Positions 823 through 19,648 of a stretch of DNA of 26,484 nt are shown here, piece by piece. The position numbers and the translations under genes are program-made. Origin of the DNA: a virus; the IMG/VR virus record IMGVR_UViG_3300027852_000155, positions 1-26,484 of that record. One strand, 5' to 3'. Every line of letters begins with the position of its first letter. The first letter of the stretch is position 1. The notes under the pieces were generated by a model. It searched no databases. It was not told the DNA's origin and was given only the letters and a program-made list of their open reading frames with translations.

Positions 823-930
823 ATGATCCGCAAGATATTTTCAGTTTTCGGTGACGCCGTTGGGGCAGCGATCGTTCTCGGTTTCCCGATTGCCGCTCTC
901 TGGATTGCCGCTGGCATGGGTTGGCTGTGA
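823..930 (+). CDS. Small single-span membrane protein, 35 aa
   Basis: This short gene encodes a basic start (MIRKIF) followed by one hydrophobic stretch (about residues 11-33, VGAAIVLGFPIAALWIAAG). It is therefore probably a single-pass inner-membrane peptide with its N-terminus in the cytoplasm. The ATG at 823 is chosen over the upstream in-frame ATG at 730 because GAAAGG (808-813) lies 9 bases before it and the upstream extension is not membrane-like. Its stop overlaps the GTG of the next gene (GTGA, 927-930), which implies translational coupling. I do not recognise the family. A holin is possible in principle, but most holins are longer and no endolysin lies beside it. Confidence 0.5.
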   Translation: MIRKIFSVFGDAVGAAIVLGFPIAALWIAAGMGWL

Positions 931-1082
931 CCGATCTTGCCGCAGCTATCCGGGCTAACGCTGTTCGAGAACGCTTGATCCACCGCGCCGACAAGGCGGC
1001 TGGCAGGTCAGGCGTTTCGGATTTGAGGGCTCGTGTCAGGCAGGCAACCATTGCCGCTCTGAAAGCTGAACTTTCAGGATAA
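927..1082 (+). CDS. Small hypothetical protein, 51 aa
   Basis: A 51-residue frame starts at a GTG that overlaps the preceding stop as GTGA and ends in TAA at 1080-1082. The product (starting MTDLAAAIRANAVRERLIHR) is rich in Ala, Arg and Lys and looks wholly alpha-helical and basic, with no membrane segment or recognisable motif. The coupling overlap and the compact layout of the neighbourhood are the main reasons to call it a gene. A small DNA-, RNA- or protein-binding regulator is conceivable, but nothing in the sequence shows this. The non-ATG start and short length keep confidence moderate. Confidence 0.45.
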   Translation: MTDLAAAIRANAVRERLIHRADKAAGRSGVSDLRARVRQATIAALKAELSG

Positions 1083-1262: not shown

Positions 1263-1367
1263 ATGGGACTGATAAGCGGCGCGATTGAACTTCTCTTTCT
1301 GTCATTCCTGATAGTGGTTTATCTGGTGATTGTGTTTCTCGTTGCGTGTCTGTTGCTAGGTGACTGA
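1263..1367 (+). CDS. Small hydrophobic membrane protein, 34 aa
   Basis: This is a 34-residue frame with a strong ribosome-binding sequence (AGGGGG, 1252-1257) 5 bases before the ATG. After MGLISGAIE almost every residue is hydrophobic (LLFLSFLIVVYLVIVFLVA), giving one membrane-spanning helix, and it ends CLLLGD. It overlaps the next gene by 8 bases. It is the second single-span mini-protein in this cassette. The strong ribosome-binding site makes it more credible than most tiny frames. The function is unknown; membrane modulation, superinfection exclusion or a lysis accessory role are untested possibilities. Confidence 0.55.
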   Translation: MGLISGAIELLFLSFLIVVYLVIVFLVACLLLGD

Positions 1368-1554
1368 ACAGGTCACGGCAGAACAGATCAAGGACGCGCT
1401 ACGATCCTGCACCAGCGTTCCATCGGTCAATGAGTGTGCCAAGCAATTCGCCAAGGACGTTGCGCGGCTCACAGCAGGGACGCAAGACGACAAGACAATG
1501 GCAATTCAGATAAAGAACCTTGCCAGTTATCGCCGAAAAATGTTGATGAGATAA
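1360..1554 (+). CDS. Small hypothetical protein, 64 aa
   Basis: The frame starts at a GTG (1360) that overlaps the end of the preceding membrane peptide by 8 bases, which suggests coupled translation. The product is soluble and mostly helical: MTEQVTAEQIKDALRSC, then a middle section with two further charged helices, ending in a basic tail (SYRRKMLMR). It has two cysteines (near residues 17 and 26) but no zinc-finger spacing. I do not recognise a family. It lies immediately before the Tad2-like gene and probably shares its transcript. Confidence 0.5.
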   Translation: MTEQVTAEQIKDALRSCTSVPSVNECAKQFAKDVARLTAGTQDDKTMAIQIKNLASYRRKMLMR

Positions 1555-1572
1555 TTTCACAGAGGGGGAAAG

Positions 1573-1794
1573 ATGATGGATTTCAGTGATGCGATAGTAT
1601 TGATTAAATCAGGAATATTTGTAACCAGAACCGGGTGGAAAAATCAAAACGCTATTGCTTGGATAAGTAATGAACTTTTGATGATTGATTCTGTTTCAGG
1701 TTATCAAACTTATGCCGCTCTAACTTCCGACGACATCATGGCTGATGATTGGACGTTAACCGTTCCAGCATTTCCAAGAAAACAACCTCGTTGA
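1573..1794 (+). CDS. DUF2829 / Tad2-like protein (candidate Thoeris anti-defence)
   Basis: The 73-residue product fits the compact DUF2829 fold. It opens with MDFSDAIVLIKSG, followed by VTRTGW (residues 17-22, an RxGW signature), and ends the domain with DDIMADDW (53-60), the usual acidic-Trp end motif. A short basic Pro-rich tail follows. Members of this family include Tad2, a phage protein that binds and sequesters the cyclic ADP-ribose-type signal made by Thoeris TIR proteins; some also bind other cyclic nucleotides. That role here is inferred from resemblance by eye. The ribosome-binding sequence AGAGGGGG (1561-1568) serves either ATG 1573 or ATG 1576; the second has better spacing. It lies in an accessory cassette just before the packaging genes. 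DUF2829 proteins of unknown function are also common, so the anti-defence role is less certain than the family call. Confidence 0.65.
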   Translation: MMDFSDAIVLIKSGIFVTRTGWKNQNAIAWISNELLMIDSVSGYQTYAALTSDDIMADDWTLTVPAFPRKQPR

Positions 1795-1845: not shown

Positions 1846-2385
1846 ATGAGTTGGATCACAAAGAAGAAAACTCTCGACGGTCAGGACGAAAAAGGCCAGT
1901 TCATGCCCGGCAACCAGATTTGGAAGCGCCGCAGCCACCACGGCCACCGCAAAGGTTTTCTATTCCCAGAGCCAGAAGATTTGGAGCGAGCGGCGATAGA
2001 ATACTTTGAATGGGTGCAAGCCAACCCACTTTATGAAGCAAAGTCTGTTGGCGGGAAAATTCAACCAGTTGAAAAGATGCGCGCCATGACGTTGCACGGG
2101 CTCTGCCTCTTTATTGGCATTTCAAAGCCCGGTTGGGATAAGTATGTTTCGCGCGAGAAATACAGTGAAACGTGCGAATGGATTGCCACCGTCATCTATG
2201 AACAGAAGTTCACCGGGGCCGCTGCAGGACTTCTCAATCACAGTATCATTTCCCGCGAACTCGGACTTGCCGATAAAAAGGAAGTCAGCAACCCGGATGG
2301 CACATTGACCCCGCCGTCACGTATTGAGATTGTTGGCATTCCCGCGAGCGTTCCAGAGGATTCCGATGACGGCAATCCAGATTGA
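1846..2385 (+). CDS. Small terminase subunit, P22 gp3-like DNA packaging protein
   Basis: The 179-residue product matches the gp3-type small terminase pattern. It has a basic N-terminus with KGQFMPGNQIWKRRS, then a helical DNA-recognition region (about 45-145) containing YFEWVQANPL, MTLHGLCLFIGIS and FTGAAAGLLNHSIISRELGL. The C-terminus is short and acidic. P22 gp3 is about the same size (162). The small subunit recognises the packaging site on phage DNA and regulates the large subunit. GAAAGG (1831-1836) lies 9 bases upstream of the ATG. Its end overlaps the large-subunit gene by 20 bases, so the two are probably translated together. Confidence 0.85.
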   Translation: MSWITKKKTLDGQDEKGQFMPGNQIWKRRSHHGHRKGFLFPEPEDLERAAIEYFEWVQANPLYEAKSVGGKIQPVEKMRAMTLHGLCLFIGISKPGWDKYVSREKYSETCEWIATVIYEQKFTGAAAGLLNHSIISRELGLADKKEVSNPDGTLTPPSRIEIVGIPASVPEDSDDGNPD

Positions 2386-3706
2386 AATCCCCGACAAGCT
2401 GGTCCCACTGTTCCAAGGGTCGGCGCGCTACAGGATTTCACATGGTGGCCGGGGCTCTGCCAAAACCCGCACATTCGCCAAGATGTCAGCCGTTTGGGCC
2501 TACAAGATGGCCGAGGCAGGTATTCATGGCCAAATTCTATGCGCTCGGGAACACCTGAACTCGCTTGATGAATCGTCAATGGCCGAGGTCAAGGCCGCGA
2601 TCCGATCTGAGCCGTGGCTGAACGCCTATTTCGACATCGGCGAGAAATACATCCGAACCAAAAACGGGCGTGTGAGTTATACATTTGCTGGGCTGCGGAC
2701 CAATGTTGATAGCGTCAAATCCAAGGCGCGCATCCTTTTGTGTTGGGTGGACGAGGCCGAGGGTGTGCTGGATTCGTCCTGGCGAACACTTATCCCAACG
2801 GTTCGTGAGGAAGGTTTCGCCGAGGGCGAGAAGTGGATCTCGGAAATCTGGGTGACGTTCAACCCAAAATCAGATCGAAGCGCGACCTATAAACGATTTG
2901 TCGCCAGTCCACCGCGCGAATCCAAGGTTGTCGTGATGAACTTTCGTGACAATCCTTGGTTCCCAAGCGTTCTGAATGACGAGCGGCTTGATGATAAGGA
3001 AAAGCGCCCCGATACCTACGGCCACATTTGGGAAGGCGATTTCTTGAAGGTGCTGGAAGGCGCATATTGGGCCAAGAACTTGAAGAAAGCCGAGGCAGAC
3101 GGTCGGATGACGCGCATTCCCATCGAGCCGGTGCTGCCTGTGTTCACGTTCTGGGATTTGGGGATCAACAATAAGACCGGGAACATGGCGGTCATCCTGA
3201 TGCAACCCATCGGCAAGGAATTGCGGTTCGTCGGCAGCTATCTAAACGCTGATTATGGGATGCCCCACTATGTGAACTGGTTGCTGAAATTCCAGAAGAA
3301 ACACGAAATCCAGTTTGGCGGGCACTATGCGCCGCACGACATCGCGGTGCGGGAACTGATAAGCGGCAAATCCCGGCAGGATGCGGCAGCCGCGCTCGGC
3401 ATTCAGTTTGAGAAGGTCGATCAGGTTTCTTACAAGCAAATTTCGATTGATGCGGCCAATGAGATATTGCCTCGGTGCTTTTTCGATCCGGTGCGCTGTG
3501 AGGACTTGCTGGAATCTCTTTGGAACTATCACCGGTTGTTCGACGAGAAGAAACAGCGGTTCCTTGGGCAGCCCGATCACGATTGGAGTTCAGATTATGC
3601 GGACGCATTCCAGCAATTCGCTATGGTCTGGACCGACGATATGGCCACAACAAAGCCACCACAGCCGCTACGTCTGAATTCCCTTGGTGGTGGCTGGATG
3701 GGGTGA
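2366..3706 (+). CDS. Terminase large subunit
   Basis: The 446-residue packaging motor has an N-terminal ATPase with a Walker A motif GGRGSAKT (27-34) and a Walker B motif ILLCWVDEAE (123-132). The C-terminal RNase H-like nuclease carries candidate metal-binding aspartates at D264 (FWDLG), D325 (APHD) and D410 (SSDYADAF). It pumps DNA into the prohead through the portal and cuts the concatemer. The start at 2366 is preferred to the in-frame ATG at 2324 because AGAGGA (2355-2360) sits 5 bases ahead and the conserved part begins right after. It overlaps the small-subunit gene by 20 bases. Length and motifs are normal for the PBSX/P22-type terminase family, and nothing key is missing. Confidence 0.95.
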   Translation: MTAIQIEIPDKLVPLFQGSARYRISHGGRGSAKTRTFAKMSAVWAYKMAEAGIHGQILCAREHLNSLDESSMAEVKAAIRSEPWLNAYFDIGEKYIRTKNGRVSYTFAGLRTNVDSVKSKARILLCWVDEAEGVLDSSWRTLIPTVREEGFAEGEKWISEIWVTFNPKSDRSATYKRFVASPPRESKVVVMNFRDNPWFPSVLNDERLDDKEKRPDTYGHIWEGDFLKVLEGAYWAKNLKKAEADGRMTRIPIEPVLPVFTFWDLGINNKTGNMAVILMQPIGKELRFVGSYLNADYGMPHYVNWLLKFQKKHEIQFGGHYAPHDIAVRELISGKSRQDAAAALGIQFEKVDQVSYKQISIDAANEILPRCFFDPVRCEDLLESLWNYHRLFDEKKQRFLGQPDHDWSSDYADAFQQFAMVWTDDMATTKPPQPLRLNSLGGGWMG

Positions 3707-12177: not shown

Positions 12178-13268
12178 TGGCAAACGCGCTTGGAATTAAC
12201 TATTCGGACGTTCTCAAAAACGTCGAAAGCATAAAGACGGCCAGATTGCAGCGCGAGGGCATTGGTCTGGACAATCAGTCCAAACGGCTCGCGCTTGGCG
12301 AGGGCAGAAAGGCCGTTGAGCGCAACGATAATGCTATCGCTCTGCGTCAAGATGCGATTGCGGGCGATGAAACGGCGCTTCCAAAGCTGGTTGCGATCAA
12401 TCCAGACGAAGCCACTGGATTTATGAAAACTCTCGCCACCATGAGCGCCTTTGACCGGTCGGAAATCAACCGTGGGATTGAGGTGATGGGCAAGGCGGCG
12501 GCCTTTGTTCTTGGCTCAAACGACCCGACCGCAGCCTATTCTCAATTGTTGCAGGCGCTACCCGAGGAAGAACGCGCAAAATATCCGCCCGAATACGATG
12601 AACAATTTGTCCGGTTGCAATTGGCGCGCGCAAGCGAGTTTGACGAACTGTTCAAAAGTGTCACGGCTAAGGATGAAACCTTGCTCAATGCCGGGATTGA
12701 TAGCGCAGCGGCAGACGCCGACGAATTGCGGGATATTGCCACCGAGGACCGCAAGACAGCCAGCACAATCGCGACAGAGAACCGGTCCGAAGGGGCTGAC
12801 ATTCGGGCAGAGGGGCGAGCCGAGGACCGCGCGATCCGTGCCGACCAGCGAAAGAATGAAGCGGCCAGCCGGAAAGCTGAACAAGCACAGACCTACCGGC
12901 TCAATGAACTGGAAGCAGGGGCCAATCTGACCCGCGAAACCAACCGACTGAAAGCGCAGGTTGAAGCTGACATCGAGGCCGGGGCTGGTCGAACAATGAA
13001 ATCGGCGGATTCCAATGCGATCTATTCTCGGGCGGCATCCCTGTTCGGCGGGACATACACCCAGAGCGCGGGCGGCGATTATGTTTTCACCGGTCTGGAT
13101 AAAACGTCATCAACCCGTGCTTTGAAGATTGCAGAACTTGCGGAAACAATTTGGCGCGGGCAGACGTCTATCGGGCACAGCGAGGCCGCACGACAGGCCG
13201 CAGAAATGCTCGGTTTTGATTTTTCCGACAACACCGGCCTACCAGCGGGGTTTGTAATTGATAAATGA
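12177..13268 (+). CDS. Internal virion / ejection protein, coiled-coil, 363 aa
   Basis: This is a soluble helical protein starting MANALGINYSDVLKNVESIK. Helical repeats lie in the middle (about 60-175). A very charged Arg/Glu/Ala segment follows (about 185-245), with near-repeats such as ADIRAEGRAEDRAIRADQRK that should form a long coiled coil. A small C-terminal domain (about 275-363) contains LFGGTYTQSAGGDYVFTGLD. No enzyme motif is seen. By position it corresponds to P22 gp20/gp16-type ejection proteins. It starts on the last base of the previous gene and overlaps the giant downstream gene by 4 bases (ATGA), which suggests coordinated production of a multi-protein ejection apparatus. Confidence 0.65.
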   Translation: MANALGINYSDVLKNVESIKTARLQREGIGLDNQSKRLALGEGRKAVERNDNAIALRQDAIAGDETALPKLVAINPDEATGFMKTLATMSAFDRSEINRGIEVMGKAAAFVLGSNDPTAAYSQLLQALPEEERAKYPPEYDEQFVRLQLARASEFDELFKSVTAKDETLLNAGIDSAAADADELRDIATEDRKTASTIATENRSEGADIRAEGRAEDRAIRADQRKNEAASRKAEQAQTYRLNELEAGANLTRETNRLKAQVEADIEAGAGRTMKSADSNAIYSRAASLFGGTYTQSAGGDYVFTGLDKTSSTRALKIAELAETIWRGQTSIGHSEAARQAAEMLGFDFSDNTGLPAGFVIDK

Positions 13269-16200
13269 AAACCGCAACCAACCCCACAACCGGCGAAAAG
13301 GTTTTTTTCAACGAAGAATCTAACAAGTGGCAACCGTTGAAAACCGCCACCAATCCTGAAACTGGTGAAAAAGTTTACCAGCAGGGGGATCAATGGCTGC
13401 CATACGAGGCGTCCAACCAGCCGGAAGCACCAAGATCATCGGACGAGACTGGCGTGATAGCCGCAGGAAAGCGCATTGCCCGGCGGTTGCCGGGCGTGGC
13501 CGAGGCGACGGGGCAGGCATTGCAGAACGTGCCGGAAAACCTGACAATCGGTGCACTTGGCTTGGGTCTGGCTGAGGCCGAATTGGAAGCAGGGGTTTCA
13601 CGTTCCGACGAGCAGGCGCAAATCAAAGGCGGGGCCGCTCTTGAGCAGATGGATGCTCAGATGGCTGACTTGCAAGCGTCCCTATCCACGGCACCACGCG
13701 ATCAGCGGGCAGCAATCCAATCCAAGATCATTGACCTGCGAAGCCAGCAGGGCCAGCAACGCCAATTGTTCGGCGCATCGAAGCAAGAAGCGCAGCGCGA
13801 GGCTCGACAGGCCACACAGGCCGAGATTGACGCCGAGGACAAGCGGATCGCCATTTCCGAGGAACAGGAAACCTTGGTCAATATCAATGCCCCAAAGGGT
13901 TCGGCAGAGTGGTATATCGCGCAGGCAATCGGGGCCACGGCGGAAATGGCGCCAGCCCTTGTTGCGTCTGTGTTGACGAGAAGCCCGGCCCCGGCAATGA
14001 CGTTCATGGGCGGCTATTCAGGCGGTCGCGCTTATGTGAGCGGGCGAGCCGAGGGGCTCACACCCGGCGAGGCGCGCGGCTATGCAACCCTGAACGCAAT
14101 TGCCGAAGGTATTCCCGAGGCCATTCCGGTTGCTGTTCTTTTGAGGCCCGGTGCAAAATTCCTAACCCGTATTGTTCAGGGTGCCGCCGCCGAAAGCGCG
14201 CAGGAAATGCTGACCGAGGCACTACAGGTCGCAATTGACCGGGGCTATATTACACCAGAAACCACATGGGCAGAGGCGCGCGAGCGCATCCTGGACGCCG
14301 GAATAATCGGATCTATGGCCGGAGTGAGCATGGCCGGGGTTGTGACAGCGACCGAGGGCACAATGACAGCCGGTCAGGCGATAGGCCGCCGCGTCATGGA
14401 CAAGTTTACGTCCGCGCAGCCCGTTGCCCCGCAGAGCGAGGCTGCACCCGTTGTCGAGGGCGTTGAGGCACCACAACAGCCGGGAACGGCCCCACCAGAC
14501 GCCCCAGTCGTCCCAGAAGGACAGGAAGGCCCCACACCGGACACACAGGCACCGGCAGCGCCCGAGGGGGCCGCTGACCCGTTCACACGCAATGTTCTGG
14601 CTTTTGTTGGCGACAAAGAGGCACCGGGTGGGTTCGATCAGGTCTACTCCGGTTCCAAGCTGGCACCGCCCAAGCCAATCACCACCATGAGCATTAACGA
14701 ATTGCTGGCTTGGCAGGACGCGAGCGTTGCAGCCGGATCGGAAAGTTCCGCAGCCGGGCGGTATCAGATCATTCGAAAGACGTTGCGCGGGCTCGTTGCC
14801 AAGATGGGTCTGAATGGTTCTGAGACTTTCAATCAAGAATTGCAGGATCGTTTGGCAGTTGAACTTATGAACGAGGCCGGGCTGGCACAGTTCAAGGCCG
14901 GTGAAATAACCGCATCCGAATTCGGCAATCGACTGTCTGGCGTGTGGGCGGCTTTGCCACGGGTTTCCGGCGATGGGGCTGGTCGGTCCACATATGCCGG
15001 GGATGGGCTGAACGCGGCCACCACCTCAGTTGATGCGTTCATGGGAATTCTTGCAGGCGACGAATACGTTGCAGGCGAGATGACAGGCGGCCACGGTGTG
15101 GGTGGAAATCAGTCCTCGCCCGCGCCCGAAGCCAAAGGCGGCACCTCTCAACCCTCCCAGAGTGGTGTCGCCACCACGCCAGAACAGGGTGTTCCCGAGC
15201 CCGTCACCACTGAGATTGAGGCAACGCAGGCACAGCCCGAGGCCGAGCCAAAGACCGAACCGCAAGAGGTGGCAGAGCAAGCCGAACAGCCGGTTGAAGA
15301 ACAGCCCGCGCCGCCCAAATCACCAGAGGCAGAGGCCGAGGTGATAAACAAGGCGATTGAGAACATCGAAACGGACCCGACCGACGCCCAAAAAGAGGCC
15401 GGGAATTATCCCAAGGGCCATGTGAAGATCGAAGGGCTGGACGTAACGATCGAGAACGGCGCGGGGCATGTTCGCAAGGGCACGGACGAAAACGGCAAGG
15501 CGTGGGAAGTCACCATGCCAGCGCATTACGGATACATCAAACGCACTGTTGGCGCTGATGGCGATCACGTTGATGTCTATGTCGGCGAGGTGCCAAATCC
15601 AAACAGCGTGTTTGTTGTCGATCAGATTGATTTGGACACCGGCAAGTTTGACGAACACAAGGTCATTCTGAGCGTTGCCGACGCAAAGGCCGCCGGAATG
15701 CTCTATCGCGCCGGGTTTTCTGATGGCAAGGGCGGCGATCGCATGGGCGCACTGTCCGAAATGACGATGGATCAGTTCAAGGCATGGCTGGATAAGGGCT
15801 CACAGAAAAAGCCTTTCGGAAAGATTGCCAAGGTTTCACGTGAAACATCGGCCACAGACACCAAGCCAAAATCTAAGGCCCCGGTGCTCGATGATCTGGT
15901 AAAGGAAGAACCCGACGCCAAGAAGCGCGCGGCGGTCATGCGCAAGGCCGCAGGCACTTCGGAAAATGTGTCGTGGGACAATCTGGAAGCGGACCAAAAA
16001 GTCAATGCTATCGCGCTCGCCCAGGCATCAAAAATGCCAACCCAAAAGACAGCGCCACGCAAGAAGCCAAAGAAACGCGCCGAACCCCTGCCGGTTCCAC
16101 GCAAAGAAATTGAACTTGCCCGGAAAACGGCGATGGACAAACTGCGCGAGGCGACCGCAGAGATTAAGCGCAAGATGGCGCGCGGCGATGATACGCTTGT

Positions 16201-19200
16201 TGAGGTCACGATATTCACACCCATGAACAAGGGCACGACATTCCGGTTCCAGCCAAATGAGGCGGGGCTGGATGCGGTCAAGGGTGTGCTGAAAAAGTGG
16301 AAAACGTCACCGGCTAAAACGCTGGCAATGGAACCGCCAAGCGATGCGGCGCTAAACTTCGATATGCCAATGCCCGGCCACCAGCCGCTTTGGCGATCTA
16401 TCCCGACGCCGTTGCGCTCAAACGCCAATTACATTCGGATAGCTGGCGAGCGCGTTGATCTGCCTGACCAACACAAGCCAGTGCGTCGATCGAGCATAAG
16501 AACATCCGTTGAAAGAATGATCGGTTCGCGTGTTTATCAGGGGAAAATCAAAGGCAAGACGCGCGCCGGTTTCTATCGCACAAGCAACGGTGAATTGCGC
16601 CTGAACAGCTTTGACGATCTGGAAGTGCTGGCCCATGAGGTTGCGCATTGGCTCGACTTCCATAGTTCTCGCAAGGCGGCTTTCACGGCCATGCGCAAAT
16701 CGGCCCCGGCCCTTGCCAAGAAGCAGATGAAAGACCTGTCCTATACGTCGCAATCTGGAAAGGTTGAGTTGGAAGGATTCGCGGAATTCGTGCGCCTTTG
16801 GCTAACGCAATACGATGTGGCCGTTGCCAAGGCACCGGACTTCACAAAACTGTTCGAGGCTGAACTGGCAAAGGACAAGTTCCTGTTGCGCGGCTTTGAA
16901 CATCTTCGCCGGGAAATGCACAAATATTTCTATCAGGGTCCACTTGCTCAAGCGCGTGGGAACATCGGCAAAGACCCAAGCCTAAAGAATGCGACCGAGG
17001 AATTCATTCTGACCCGGCCCATATCGCGCTTGCGCCAGCAGGCCGTTGATAACCTGCATGGGATCAAGGTCGCCGAGCGGGAAAGCACGGGCACAATCGC
17101 GAGTGCTGAAAATTCGCCCTACAAGCTGATGCAATTGGTCAATGGGGCCGAGGGCGTTTACGAGGCAACGGTTCGGTGGGGCACGCCAAAGCTGGAAGCG
17201 GATGGATCGTTCTCGTTCAACGGCAAAGCCCTGAATGAAATTTTCCGGCCGATTTACAAGATGGGCCCAAAGGCGTTTGACGATTTCTTGCTCTATGCCG
17301 CGGGTCGGCGCGCCAATGAGTTGAAGAAACAAGACCGCGAAAACCTGTTCGATCAGGAACAAATCGCGGCCATGCTAGAATTAAAGCGACCTGAGTTCGA
17401 TGCGGTTTTTGATGAATACCAACAGTTCAATTTGGAAATGCTGGATTTCTACGTGGACATGGGGCTGATAACGAAGGACCAGAAAAAGGCTTTCAGGGCA
17501 GCGAATGAAAACTACATTCCCTTCCATCGGATTTCTGAAAGTCTCGAAACGGGACGGCCCACCAGCGGTGTGTCGATAGGGGCGAGATTGAAGGGCGGCG
17601 ACAGAAACGTCCGCAATCTGGCAGACAACATTGTCGAAGGCGTTATGACCAACATCCGGGCTGCGATGATCGCCAAGGCAAAACAAACCCTCTACCGACA
17701 AGTCTCTAAGAGCGACACGGGCGGTTCGTTTGCTGTTAAAATTGGGACCGACAGCAAGGCAGTTAAGGCGCGTCTTGATGATATGGCTGGCAAGGTTGCC
17801 GAGGCGATGCTGCGTCTTGGCTTTGGTGTGTCCAAAGACGGAATGATAATGGGCACGGGTCAGTCTGGAACCATCACCGATGTGGACGAAATCGCCACAG
17901 TTCTAAAAGACAACCCGGAATTGTTGATGCTCTGGAACCATAACGTCGCCCCGACCACCCAGGAAACTTACGTGGATTCGGCGATCATCGGCGGCAAGCA
18001 GGTTTATTTTGAGGTTCAAGATCCGGTCTTGGTCGATAGCCTTCTGGCAAACCAGCACATGAAATACGGACTTTTGATGCGCTCGCTCGTCGGTGTTCGC
18101 CGGTTCTATACGCGCACGATCACCAACATGGTTCAGTTCATCACGCCCAACATAAGCCGCGACACCCTGACCGCTGCCGGCCTGTCCGACAGCCGGTTCC
18201 GCCCGTTCTGGGATAGCCTGCGTGGCATGAAGCAAATCCTGACAACTTCGGATGTTTATAAAGACTGGAAGTTGCAGGGCGGCGGCTATGCGTCCTTTGT
18301 CGAGGCATCCACAGCAGAGGGGCGGCACCGCGCACAACTGGACATGCCGTCACGCGGCCCGCTTGATGTGTTGGCAAAGGGGCTGGCATCCTATGACGCC
18401 TTGTCCGCGGCATTTGAGAACGCAACGCGCGTCGGCGAATTTATGCGGGCGCAAGAGCGCGGAACATCAAAGAAAGAAGCGGCCTTTCGGGCTCGGGAAG
18501 TATCGACAGATTTCAGCAAAAAGCCGGGGAACCGCGAGTGGTCCGGTTTCTTGCAGATTGTTCCTTTTGCAAACGCTGCCCTTCAAGGTAACGACCGGAT
18601 GGTCAAGGCGTTCACAGGCGAGGATGGCCGAGTGCAAAAAGGTCGCATGGCTTCCTATGCTCTGCGCCGCACATTCTTTTCCGCTGGCACAGCAATGGCA
18701 GCCTTTACAGCGTTCCTTTGGTATCTGCAAAACGACGACGAGCGATACAAGGCATTGACGCCAGATCAGAAAAGCCGGTTCTGGCACATTTGGTTGCCGG
18801 GCAAAGAAAACGCCATTCAGATTCCAAAGCCTTACGGGTTGGGTTTGATCTTTGCAGACACGGTTGAGAATGCGCTGGACTATGTGAAGGACAAGGATGG
18901 GGCCGAGGTCGCGACAAATCTTGCTTGGGCAATGAAGCACCATTTCTGGTTCATGGATTATCCCGGCGCGATCCAGCCAATCGTTGACCACATGACTAAC
19001 CAGAAATTCACGGGCGCGCCGGTTATCCCGCCGAGCCTTGAGAATGTTTCGAATGAATTGCAGTTCACAGACAGAACGCCGGAAATCTATCGCCGCATGG
19101 GTCGGACGATGGGCGTGTCGCCGTTGCTGGCAGAGCATTATTTCCGGGGATACCTGGGCTATGTCGAGCAATACTGGACGGACGCCACTGAAACGATGCT

Positions 19201-19648
19201 TTGGGACACTGAGACTTGGGGCCCGAGGCCCTTCCCGCGTGGGATTGATGACTACTTTGTGAAGCAGTTCAAGGGGGCCAAAATATCATATCGGACGAAA
19301 TACACCGAAGGATATTACGATCTTAGAAAGCGCGCGGCCACAGCGACAGCCGATTTGCGCATGGCAGAAAAGATCATTCTCAGGGATGGGACGCGATTGC
19401 AGGAAGTGGCATCCAACGAAATGAACCAAGTTCTTATCGGCTTGACCAAGGTTTTCGCCCAAATCGACAAAGTGTTGGGTGATGGGCAAAAAACTGTTAT
19501 TGCAATCAAGTATGACCCGAGTTTGACCCGCGCCGAAAAGGAAACCCAGATTGAAAACTGGTATGAACAAAGGCATGAACTTGTGAAAGATGTTTACTTG
19601 GCGGCGGAAACTGAGGTCGAGAAGGTCGAAAGGGGCTTAGGCAAATGA
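13265..19648 (+). CDS. Giant polyvalent ejection protein: lysozyme-like, pyrophosphatase-like, metallopeptidase and LPD38-like domains
   Basis: This 2127-residue protein carries several domains in order. (1) Two tandem repeats KTATNPxTGEKV...W (2-24, 26-46). (2) A hydrophobic Ala/Gly-rich helical region (about 220-370) that could cross membranes. (3) A lysozyme-like domain (about 438-600) with E452 and SAAGRYQI (495-502). (4) An inorganic-pyrophosphatase-like domain (about 713-860) with ADGDHVDVYVG, whose aspartates 765, 767 and 770 match the family metal-binding motif. (5) A zinc metallopeptidase with HEVAH (1124-1128) and EGFAEF (1170-1175). (6) A long C-terminal helical region with an LPD38-like block (about 1815-1880, from WYLQNDDERYKAL). 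Such combinations define phage polyvalent proteins, thought to be delivered with DNA to counter the host. The lysozyme would open peptidoglycan. Substrates of the other domains are unknown. It overlaps both flanking genes by 4 bases. Confidence 0.85.
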   Translation: MKTATNPTTGEKVFFNEESNKWQPLKTATNPETGEKVYQQGDQWLPYEASNQPEAPRSSDETGVIAAGKRIARRLPGVAEATGQALQNVPENLTIGALGLGLAEAELEAGVSRSDEQAQIKGGAALEQMDAQMADLQASLSTAPRDQRAAIQSKIIDLRSQQGQQRQLFGASKQEAQREARQATQAEIDAEDKRIAISEEQETLVNINAPKGSAEWYIAQAIGATAEMAPALVASVLTRSPAPAMTFMGGYSGGRAYVSGRAEGLTPGEARGYATLNAIAEGIPEAIPVAVLLRPGAKFLTRIVQGAAAESAQEMLTEALQVAIDRGYITPETTWAEARERILDAGIIGSMAGVSMAGVVTATEGTMTAGQAIGRRVMDKFTSAQPVAPQSEAAPVVEGVEAPQQPGTAPPDAPVVPEGQEGPTPDTQAPAAPEGAADPFTRNVLAFVGDKEAPGGFDQVYSGSKLAPPKPITTMSINELLAWQDASVAAGSESSAAGRYQIIRKTLRGLVAKMGLNGSETFNQELQDRLAVELMNEAGLAQFKAGEITASEFGNRLSGVWAALPRVSGDGAGRSTYAGDGLNAATTSVDAFMGILAGDEYVAGEMTGGHGVGGNQSSPAPEAKGGTSQPSQSGVATTPEQGVPEPVTTEIEATQAQPEAEPKTEPQEVAEQAEQPVEEQPAPPKSPEAEAEVINKAIENIETDPTDAQKEAGNYPKGHVKIEGLDVTIENGAGHVRKGTDENGKAWEVTMPAHYGYIKRTVGADGDHVDVYVGEVPNPNSVFVVDQIDLDTGKFDEHKVILSVADAKAAGMLYRAGFSDGKGGDRMGALSEMTMDQFKAWLDKGSQKKPFGKIAKVSRETSATDTKPKSKAPVLDDLVKEEPDAKKRAAVMRKAAGTSENVSWDNLEADQKVNAIALAQASKMPTQKTAPRKKPKKRAEPLPVPRKEIELARKTAMDKLREATAEIKRKMARGDDTLVEVTIFTPMNKGTTFRFQPNEAGLDAVKGVLKKWKTSPAKTLAMEPPSDAALNFDMPMPGHQPLWRSIPTPLRSNANYIRIAGERVDLPDQHKPVRRSSIRTSVERMIGSRVYQGKIKGKTRAGFYRTSNGELRLNSFDDLEVLAHEVAHWLDFHSSRKAAFTAMRKSAPALAKKQMKDLSYTSQSGKVELEGFAEFVRLWLTQYDVAVAKAPDFTKLFEAELAKDKFLLRGFEHLRREMHKYFYQGPLAQARGNIGKDPSLKNATEEFILTRPISRLRQQAVDNLHGIKVAERESTGTIASAENSPYKLMQLVNGAEGVYEATVRWGTPKLEADGSFSFNGKALNEIFRPIYKMGPKAFDDFLLYAAGRRANELKKQDRENLFDQEQIAAMLELKRPEFDAVFDEYQQFNLEMLDFYVDMGLITKDQKKAFRAANENYIPFHRISESLETGRPTSGVSIGARLKGGDRNVRNLADNIVEGVMTNIRAAMIAKAKQTLYRQVSKSDTGGSFAVKIGTDSKAVKARLDDMAGKVAEAMLRLGFGVSKDGMIMGTGQSGTITDVDEIATVLKDNPELLMLWNHNVAPTTQETYVDSAIIGGKQVYFEVQDPVLVDSLLANQHMKYGLLMRSLVGVRRFYTRTITNMVQFITPNISRDTLTAAGLSDSRFRPFWDSLRGMKQILTTSDVYKDWKLQGGGYASFVEASTAEGRHRAQLDMPSRGPLDVLAKGLASYDALSAAFENATRVGEFMRAQERGTSKKEAAFRAREVSTDFSKKPGNREWSGFLQIVPFANAALQGNDRMVKAFTGEDGRVQKGRMASYALRRTFFSAGTAMAAFTAFLWYLQNDDERYKALTPDQKSRFWHIWLPGKENAIQIPKPYGLGLIFADTVENALDYVKDKDGAEVATNLAWAMKHHFWFMDYPGAIQPIVDHMTNQKFTGAPVIPPSLENVSNELQFTDRTPEIYRRMGRTMGVSPLLAEHYFRGYLGYVEQYWTDATETMLWDTETWGPRPFPRGIDDYFVKQFKGAKISYRTKYTEGYYDLRKRAATATADLRMAEKIILRDGTRLQEVASNEMNQVLIGLTKVFAQIDKVLGDGQKTVIAIKYDPSLTRAEKETQIENWYEQRHELVKDVYLAAETEVEKVERGLGK
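13268..13402 (+). repeat. Tandem coding repeat at the start of the polyvalent gene
   Basis: Two diverged direct repeats of about 70 bases start at 13268 and 13340. Each encodes K-T-A-T-N-P-x-T-G-E-K-V followed by a short charged loop and a W-x-P ending. The pattern looks like a small beta unit, perhaps used to dock the protein in the virion or to another ejection protein. The repeats differ mostly at silent or loop positions, so this is an old duplication rather than a recent one. Confidence 0.7.

Follow-up and report, generated by a model that had tools for sequence, protein, structure and literature searches.

A short, divergent Tad2-like protein with altered pocket motifs encoded ahead of the terminase genes of a podovirus-like phage

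SPO1 Tad2 (gp34.65; PDB 8SME, 8SMF, 8SMG, and 8WJE) is an anti-Thoeris sponge for 1''-2' and 1''-3' gcADPR. ModTad2, from a Myroides prophage (PDB 8V3E and 9EIB), binds His-ADPR, and HgmTad2/AcrIIA7 and SptTad2 (PDB 8KBI-8KBM, 8WJC, 8WJD, and 9KZR) are sponges for cADPR isomers as well as cyclic dinucleotides. According to a review (PMC12043709), gcADPR sits in a pocket bordered by strand beta4, helix alpha3, and three loops (beta1-beta2, beta3-beta4, and beta4-alpha3), and cyclic dinucleotides bind at a site formed by a long insertion between beta2 and beta5. The corresponding Pfam family, PF11195 (DUF2829), is presently named "Thoeris anti-defense 2-like domain." A rhizobiophage protein, P015 of the Sinorhizobium podovirus AP-20-A, is Tad2-like, 97 aa long, and 50% identical to MoTad2 (PMC13299392). 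Many phages carry Tad2-like domains, and the annotation of a divergent member does not reveal which signal it binds.

The window, i.e., the whole stretch of DNA analyzed here, is a virus record of 26,484 bases (IMG/VR) that may be a fragment. Because it contains portal, major head protein, head-closure, and DNA-ejection-type genes, and because its large terminase subunit has relatives in Rhizobium, Paracoccus, and Sulfitobacter phages, we consider the phage to be podovirus-like. Directly upstream of its packaging genes, where the original prediction had placed it, lies an intact reading frame for a 73-residue protein that indeed contains MDFSDAIVLIKSG, VTRTGW, and DDIMADDW (Table 1). A strong ribosome-binding site (AGAGGGGGAAAG-ATG) precedes its start, and an alternative start is possible (ATG at 1576). 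Between positions 700 and 2400 we found no promoters exceeding chance and no excess of terminators, and an Rfam search of the whole window returned no family.

Table 1. Positions of the Tad2-like gene and its neighbors in the window
Feature	Position	Strand	Evidence
Membrane peptide, 35 aa	823..930	+	Max 19-residue Kyte-Doolittle 2.2; no family hit
Basic small ORF, 51 aa, GTG start overlapping preceding stop	927..1082	+	No relative in viral contigs; no family hit
Single-pass membrane peptide, 34 aa	1263..1367	+	Max 19-residue Kyte-Doolittle 3.2; no significant family hit
Small gene orf1360, 64 aa, GTG start overlapping the preceding ORF's stop	1360..1554	+	Relatives in 10 viral contigs; no family hit
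Shine-Dalgarno region agagggggaaag of the Tad2-like gene	1561..1572	+	Sequence
Tad2-like (PF11195/DUF2829) protein, 73 aa, compact, without beta2-beta5 insertion	1573..1794	+	PF11195 33.2 bits; fold Z 11.2; GC 38%, GC3 30%
Terminase small subunit (TerS), landmark	1846..2385	+	phrog_606 E 1.8e-38; PF16677
Terminase large subunit (TerL), landmark	2366..3706	+	PF04466 E 2.8e-23; 44-47% identity to Paracoccus, Rhizobium, and Sulfitobacter phage TerL

The proposed membership of DUF2829 was borne out by a profile search, with which the predicted fold agrees. PF11195 matches residues 2 to 62 at model positions 1 to 72 of 73 with an E value of 7.6e-8, and the score of 33.2 bits exceeds the curated gathering cut-off of 25 bits. 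Typical members of the family score 64 to 89 bits; hence, the window protein is a distant member. The profiles phrog_1048 and phrog_872 also match it, and both match SPO1 Tad2 strongly. SPO1 Tad2 in turn tops the list of a phmmer search against the PDB (E 0.003). No PADLOC model matched the protein. The core residues F4, K12, G14, R19, G21, W22, D54, A57, D59, and W60 are conserved. Judged by its sequence, the window protein is a real, divergent, and unusually short member of a known counter-defense domain family.

An AlphaFold2 model of the protein, obtained with an alignment of ten viral relatives that included family members, reached a mean pLDDT of 81. In a Foldseek search against the PDB the top 24 matches were all Tad2/AcrIIA7 chains, and the next match had an E value of 4. 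VIA-align gave Z scores of 9.8 to 11.2 for ten Tad2-family entries versus 5.8 for the next fold, and the model superposed best on apo-SPO1 Tad2 (8wje; Z 11.2, rmsd 1.4 A over 64 residues). The model thus resembles the solved Tad2 structures and no other fold. This agreement is not independent proof of the fold, because the input alignment held family members and a single-sequence AlphaFold control reached a pLDDT of only 51. The model is weak at residues 41 to 50 (pLDDT 67).

What sets the protein apart is its length. The chain runs directly from the second strand to the third, with LLMIDSVSGYQTYAALTSDDIMADDW aligning without a gap to IIFIKTADNKIHAWVPSQTDVLAEDW of SPO1 Tad2, and therefore the inter-strand insertion is missing. 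From RxGW to DW the protein spans 42 residues, compared with 64 in SPO1 Tad2 and 50 to 90 (median 66) in 138 relatives. Other phage-borne members of 60 to 75 aa exist. The long beta2-beta5 insertion that characterizes anti-CBASS-type Tad2 is absent, so the window protein is unlikely to bind cyclic dinucleotides in the manner of the long-insertion Tad2 proteins.

Both motifs that line the pocket are changed as well. In the beta1-beta2 loop the family has GWNGK(G/N)M and the window protein GWKNQNA; in the beta4/alpha3 motif the family has W-x-x-S-(Q/V)-(T/S)-D and the window protein A-A-L-T-S-D-D. WNG is present in 138 of 138 relatives, a count that is partly circular because many of them were retrieved by a pattern containing WNG. 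The W ahead of SQTD, whose column was not part of the search patterns, is likewise found in 138 of 138. At these two positions the window protein has WK and A, respectively. Read residue by residue, SPO1 Tad2, ModTad2, and HgmTad2/AcrIIA7 retain RxGWNGKxM and W-x-x-S-x-x-D-x-LA-x-DW, and most of these pocket-loop residues of the solved Tad2s are gone from the window protein. A one-residue shift could place N24 and Y47 at the family N and W positions. Because of this possible shift, and because the model is uncertain in this region, the pocket is best described as remodeled rather than lost. A divergent relative (L097) likewise deviates at both motifs, so such a change is not unique to the window protein. 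The comparison with Tad2 supported the family membership given in the original prediction and did not recover the pocket-lining motifs (GWNGK reads GWKNQ, and W-x-x-SQTD reads A-x-x-TSDD). An anti-Thoeris role is a plausible possibility. The motif changes might even be harmless and the protein an ordinary Tad2 that is fully active against Thoeris and binds gcADPR exactly as SPO1 Tad2 does; the family and fold match and the retention of R19, W22, N26, D54, A57, and D59-W60 are consistent with this explanation, yet we consider it unlikely because the solved ligand-binding members inspected have other residues in most columns of the two loops.

The loss of the pocket motifs could also mean that the Tad2 fold has been repurposed, for example as a small regulator or a protein-binding module that does not use the pocket for a nucleotide, and the AcrIIA7 branch carries a PDB name that refers to a type II CRISPR-Cas inhibitor. 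A match to phrog_643 ("transcriptional regulator") at 20.7 bits seems to point in the same direction. However, SPO1 Tad2 (20.5 bits) and a typical member (21.2 bits) match this profile equally well, which makes the match uninformative, and we dropped the regulator reading that was based on it. Moreover, the model matches no fold other than that of Tad2, and a repurposed protein appears improbable to us.

The gene differs in composition from its surroundings. Its GC content and third-position GC (Table 1) compare with 54% for the contig and a median of 61%, respectively, and nowhere in the larger genes does an in-frame stretch of equal length have so low a third-position value. In TerS and in the four small upstream genes, GC content ranges from 46 to 58%. 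Among 37 contigs with related terminases, several of which are fragments, no PF11195 match exceeded the cut-off, and three named alphaproteobacterial phages gave no match; phrog_643 was likewise absent from these contigs and phages. In one related phage (G010), an 816-aa frame contains a sub-threshold match of 16.3 bits to the C-terminal motif of PF11195 (L083; G010:C1:14571-14642), which is probably due to chance. The outlier composition and the lack of above-cut-off PF11195 matches in related phages make the gene look like a foreign, recent single insertion. No close relatives emerged from tblastn and pattern scans of phages, plasmids, viral contigs, and bacterial species genomes; where these scans returned anything, it was a short match to the N-terminal part of an ordinary DUF2829 protein. 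The domain is rare in the phylum of an Acidimicrobiales genome (G044): of 396 genomes, the center genome alone scored above the PF11195 cut-off. That the insert is a decaying, nonfunctional fragment of a foreign Tad2, stripped of insertion and pocket, would fit its low score (33 versus 64 to 89 bits), its AT-rich foreign composition, and the lack of a close relative, but is very improbable in view of the intact frame, the strong Shine-Dalgarno sequence, the preserved core and fold residues, and the phage members of similar length mentioned above.

Does the gene belong to a larger counter-defense locus? Four small open reading frames, two of which encode one hydrophobic stretch each, do lie upstream, as had been noted together with the suggestion that the whole cassette (823-1794) may be a counter-defense island. 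Profile searches assigned none of the four to a known family; as a test of the island this is weak, because PADLOC covers defense rather than anti-defense. The 10 viral contigs with relatives of orf1360 encode longer proteins with 43 to 56% identity to it. These relatives (L297-L306) have an N-terminal, zinc-ribbon-like CxxC..CxxC, which the window copy does not have. We saw no sign of counter-defense in orf1360, and tblastn of the stretches around its ten relatives, a search that a distant Tad2 could escape, found no relative of either the Tad2-like protein or the terminase of the window. Within the cassette only the Tad2-like gene is a compositional outlier, and its small neighbors are native in composition. 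Related phages differ from one another in the small genes that precede the terminase. Hence, with native neighbors, no families, orf1360 occurring elsewhere without a detectable Tad2-like partner, and variable pre-terminase genes, the island is unsupported.

Elsewhere in the window (13265-19648), a 2127-aa polyvalent protein carries an inorganic-pyrophosphatase-like domain (PF18823; residues 707 to 842, E 5.8e-49) and LPD38 (PF18857), and its residues 639 to 971 match the DarB-like antirestriction profile phrog_10089. We regard this protein as a candidate for co-injection with the phage DNA, and it is a better-supported counter-defense lead than the small-gene cassette.

Of the explanations considered, we favor, with about an even chance of being correct, a horizontally acquired, compact Tad2-fold moron whose remodeled pocket probably serves to sequester an immune signal of the ADP-ribose type. 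We hypothesize that a podovirus-like phage acquired this accessory gene horizontally at a point between its small genes and its packaging genes. The product would be a minimal Tad2-fold protein, most likely forming a Tad2-like assembly, and could capture a nucleotide signal, presumably one of the ADP-ribose class that TIR enzymes produce, with pocket loops that have been remodeled relative to those of the known Tad2 proteins. Sequestration of a nucleotide immune signal is the most likely function, as suggested by the fold and the family and not by the pocket residues. It is a more distant prospect that the loss of the insertion and the rewriting of both pocket loops have given this minimal Tad2 a specificity for a signal not assigned to any sponge, in a podovirus-like phage related to phages of alphaproteobacteria. 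Because the window protein is unusually small by nature and altered in both pocket loops, it provides a clean test of whether a bare Tad2 core still binds a signal and, if so, what that signal is; in other respects, it would be another lateral acquisition of a known counter-defense domain.

Compared with the described systems, the window protein shares its predicted fold with the solved Tad2 proteins named above and lacks the insertion that they carry. The N-terminal F..A..K.G..V.R.GW and C-terminal D..A.DW core is common to SPO1 Tad2 and the window protein, which are about 23% identical; the insertion is lacking in the latter, and GWNGKN and AWVPSQTD of SPO1 Tad2 correspond to GWKNQN and YAALTSDD. 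ModTad2 (Z 10.3 to 10.6, about 25% identity) retains GWNGKGM, the W, and the insertion, none of which the window protein has, and its domain comprises 83 residues (PMC13299392) versus about 62. HgmTad2/AcrIIA7 and SptTad2 (Z about 10) have the long cGG-binding insertion that is absent here. P015 is likewise a Tad2-like domain in a podovirus, with 97 aa compared with the 73 aa of the divergent window protein. A second insertion-less Tad2-like protein, L295 (IMG/VR 3300037466_003665; L295:2001-2336), has a C-terminal extension and is about 31% identical to the window protein over the aligned part. Its RPAW-to-DW span is about as short, with the insertion absent in both, but L295 retains the W before the C-terminal helix, unlike the window protein. 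With 20 bits it falls under the PF11195 cut-off, and it may represent a branch of short Tad2-like proteins that Pfam does not detect.
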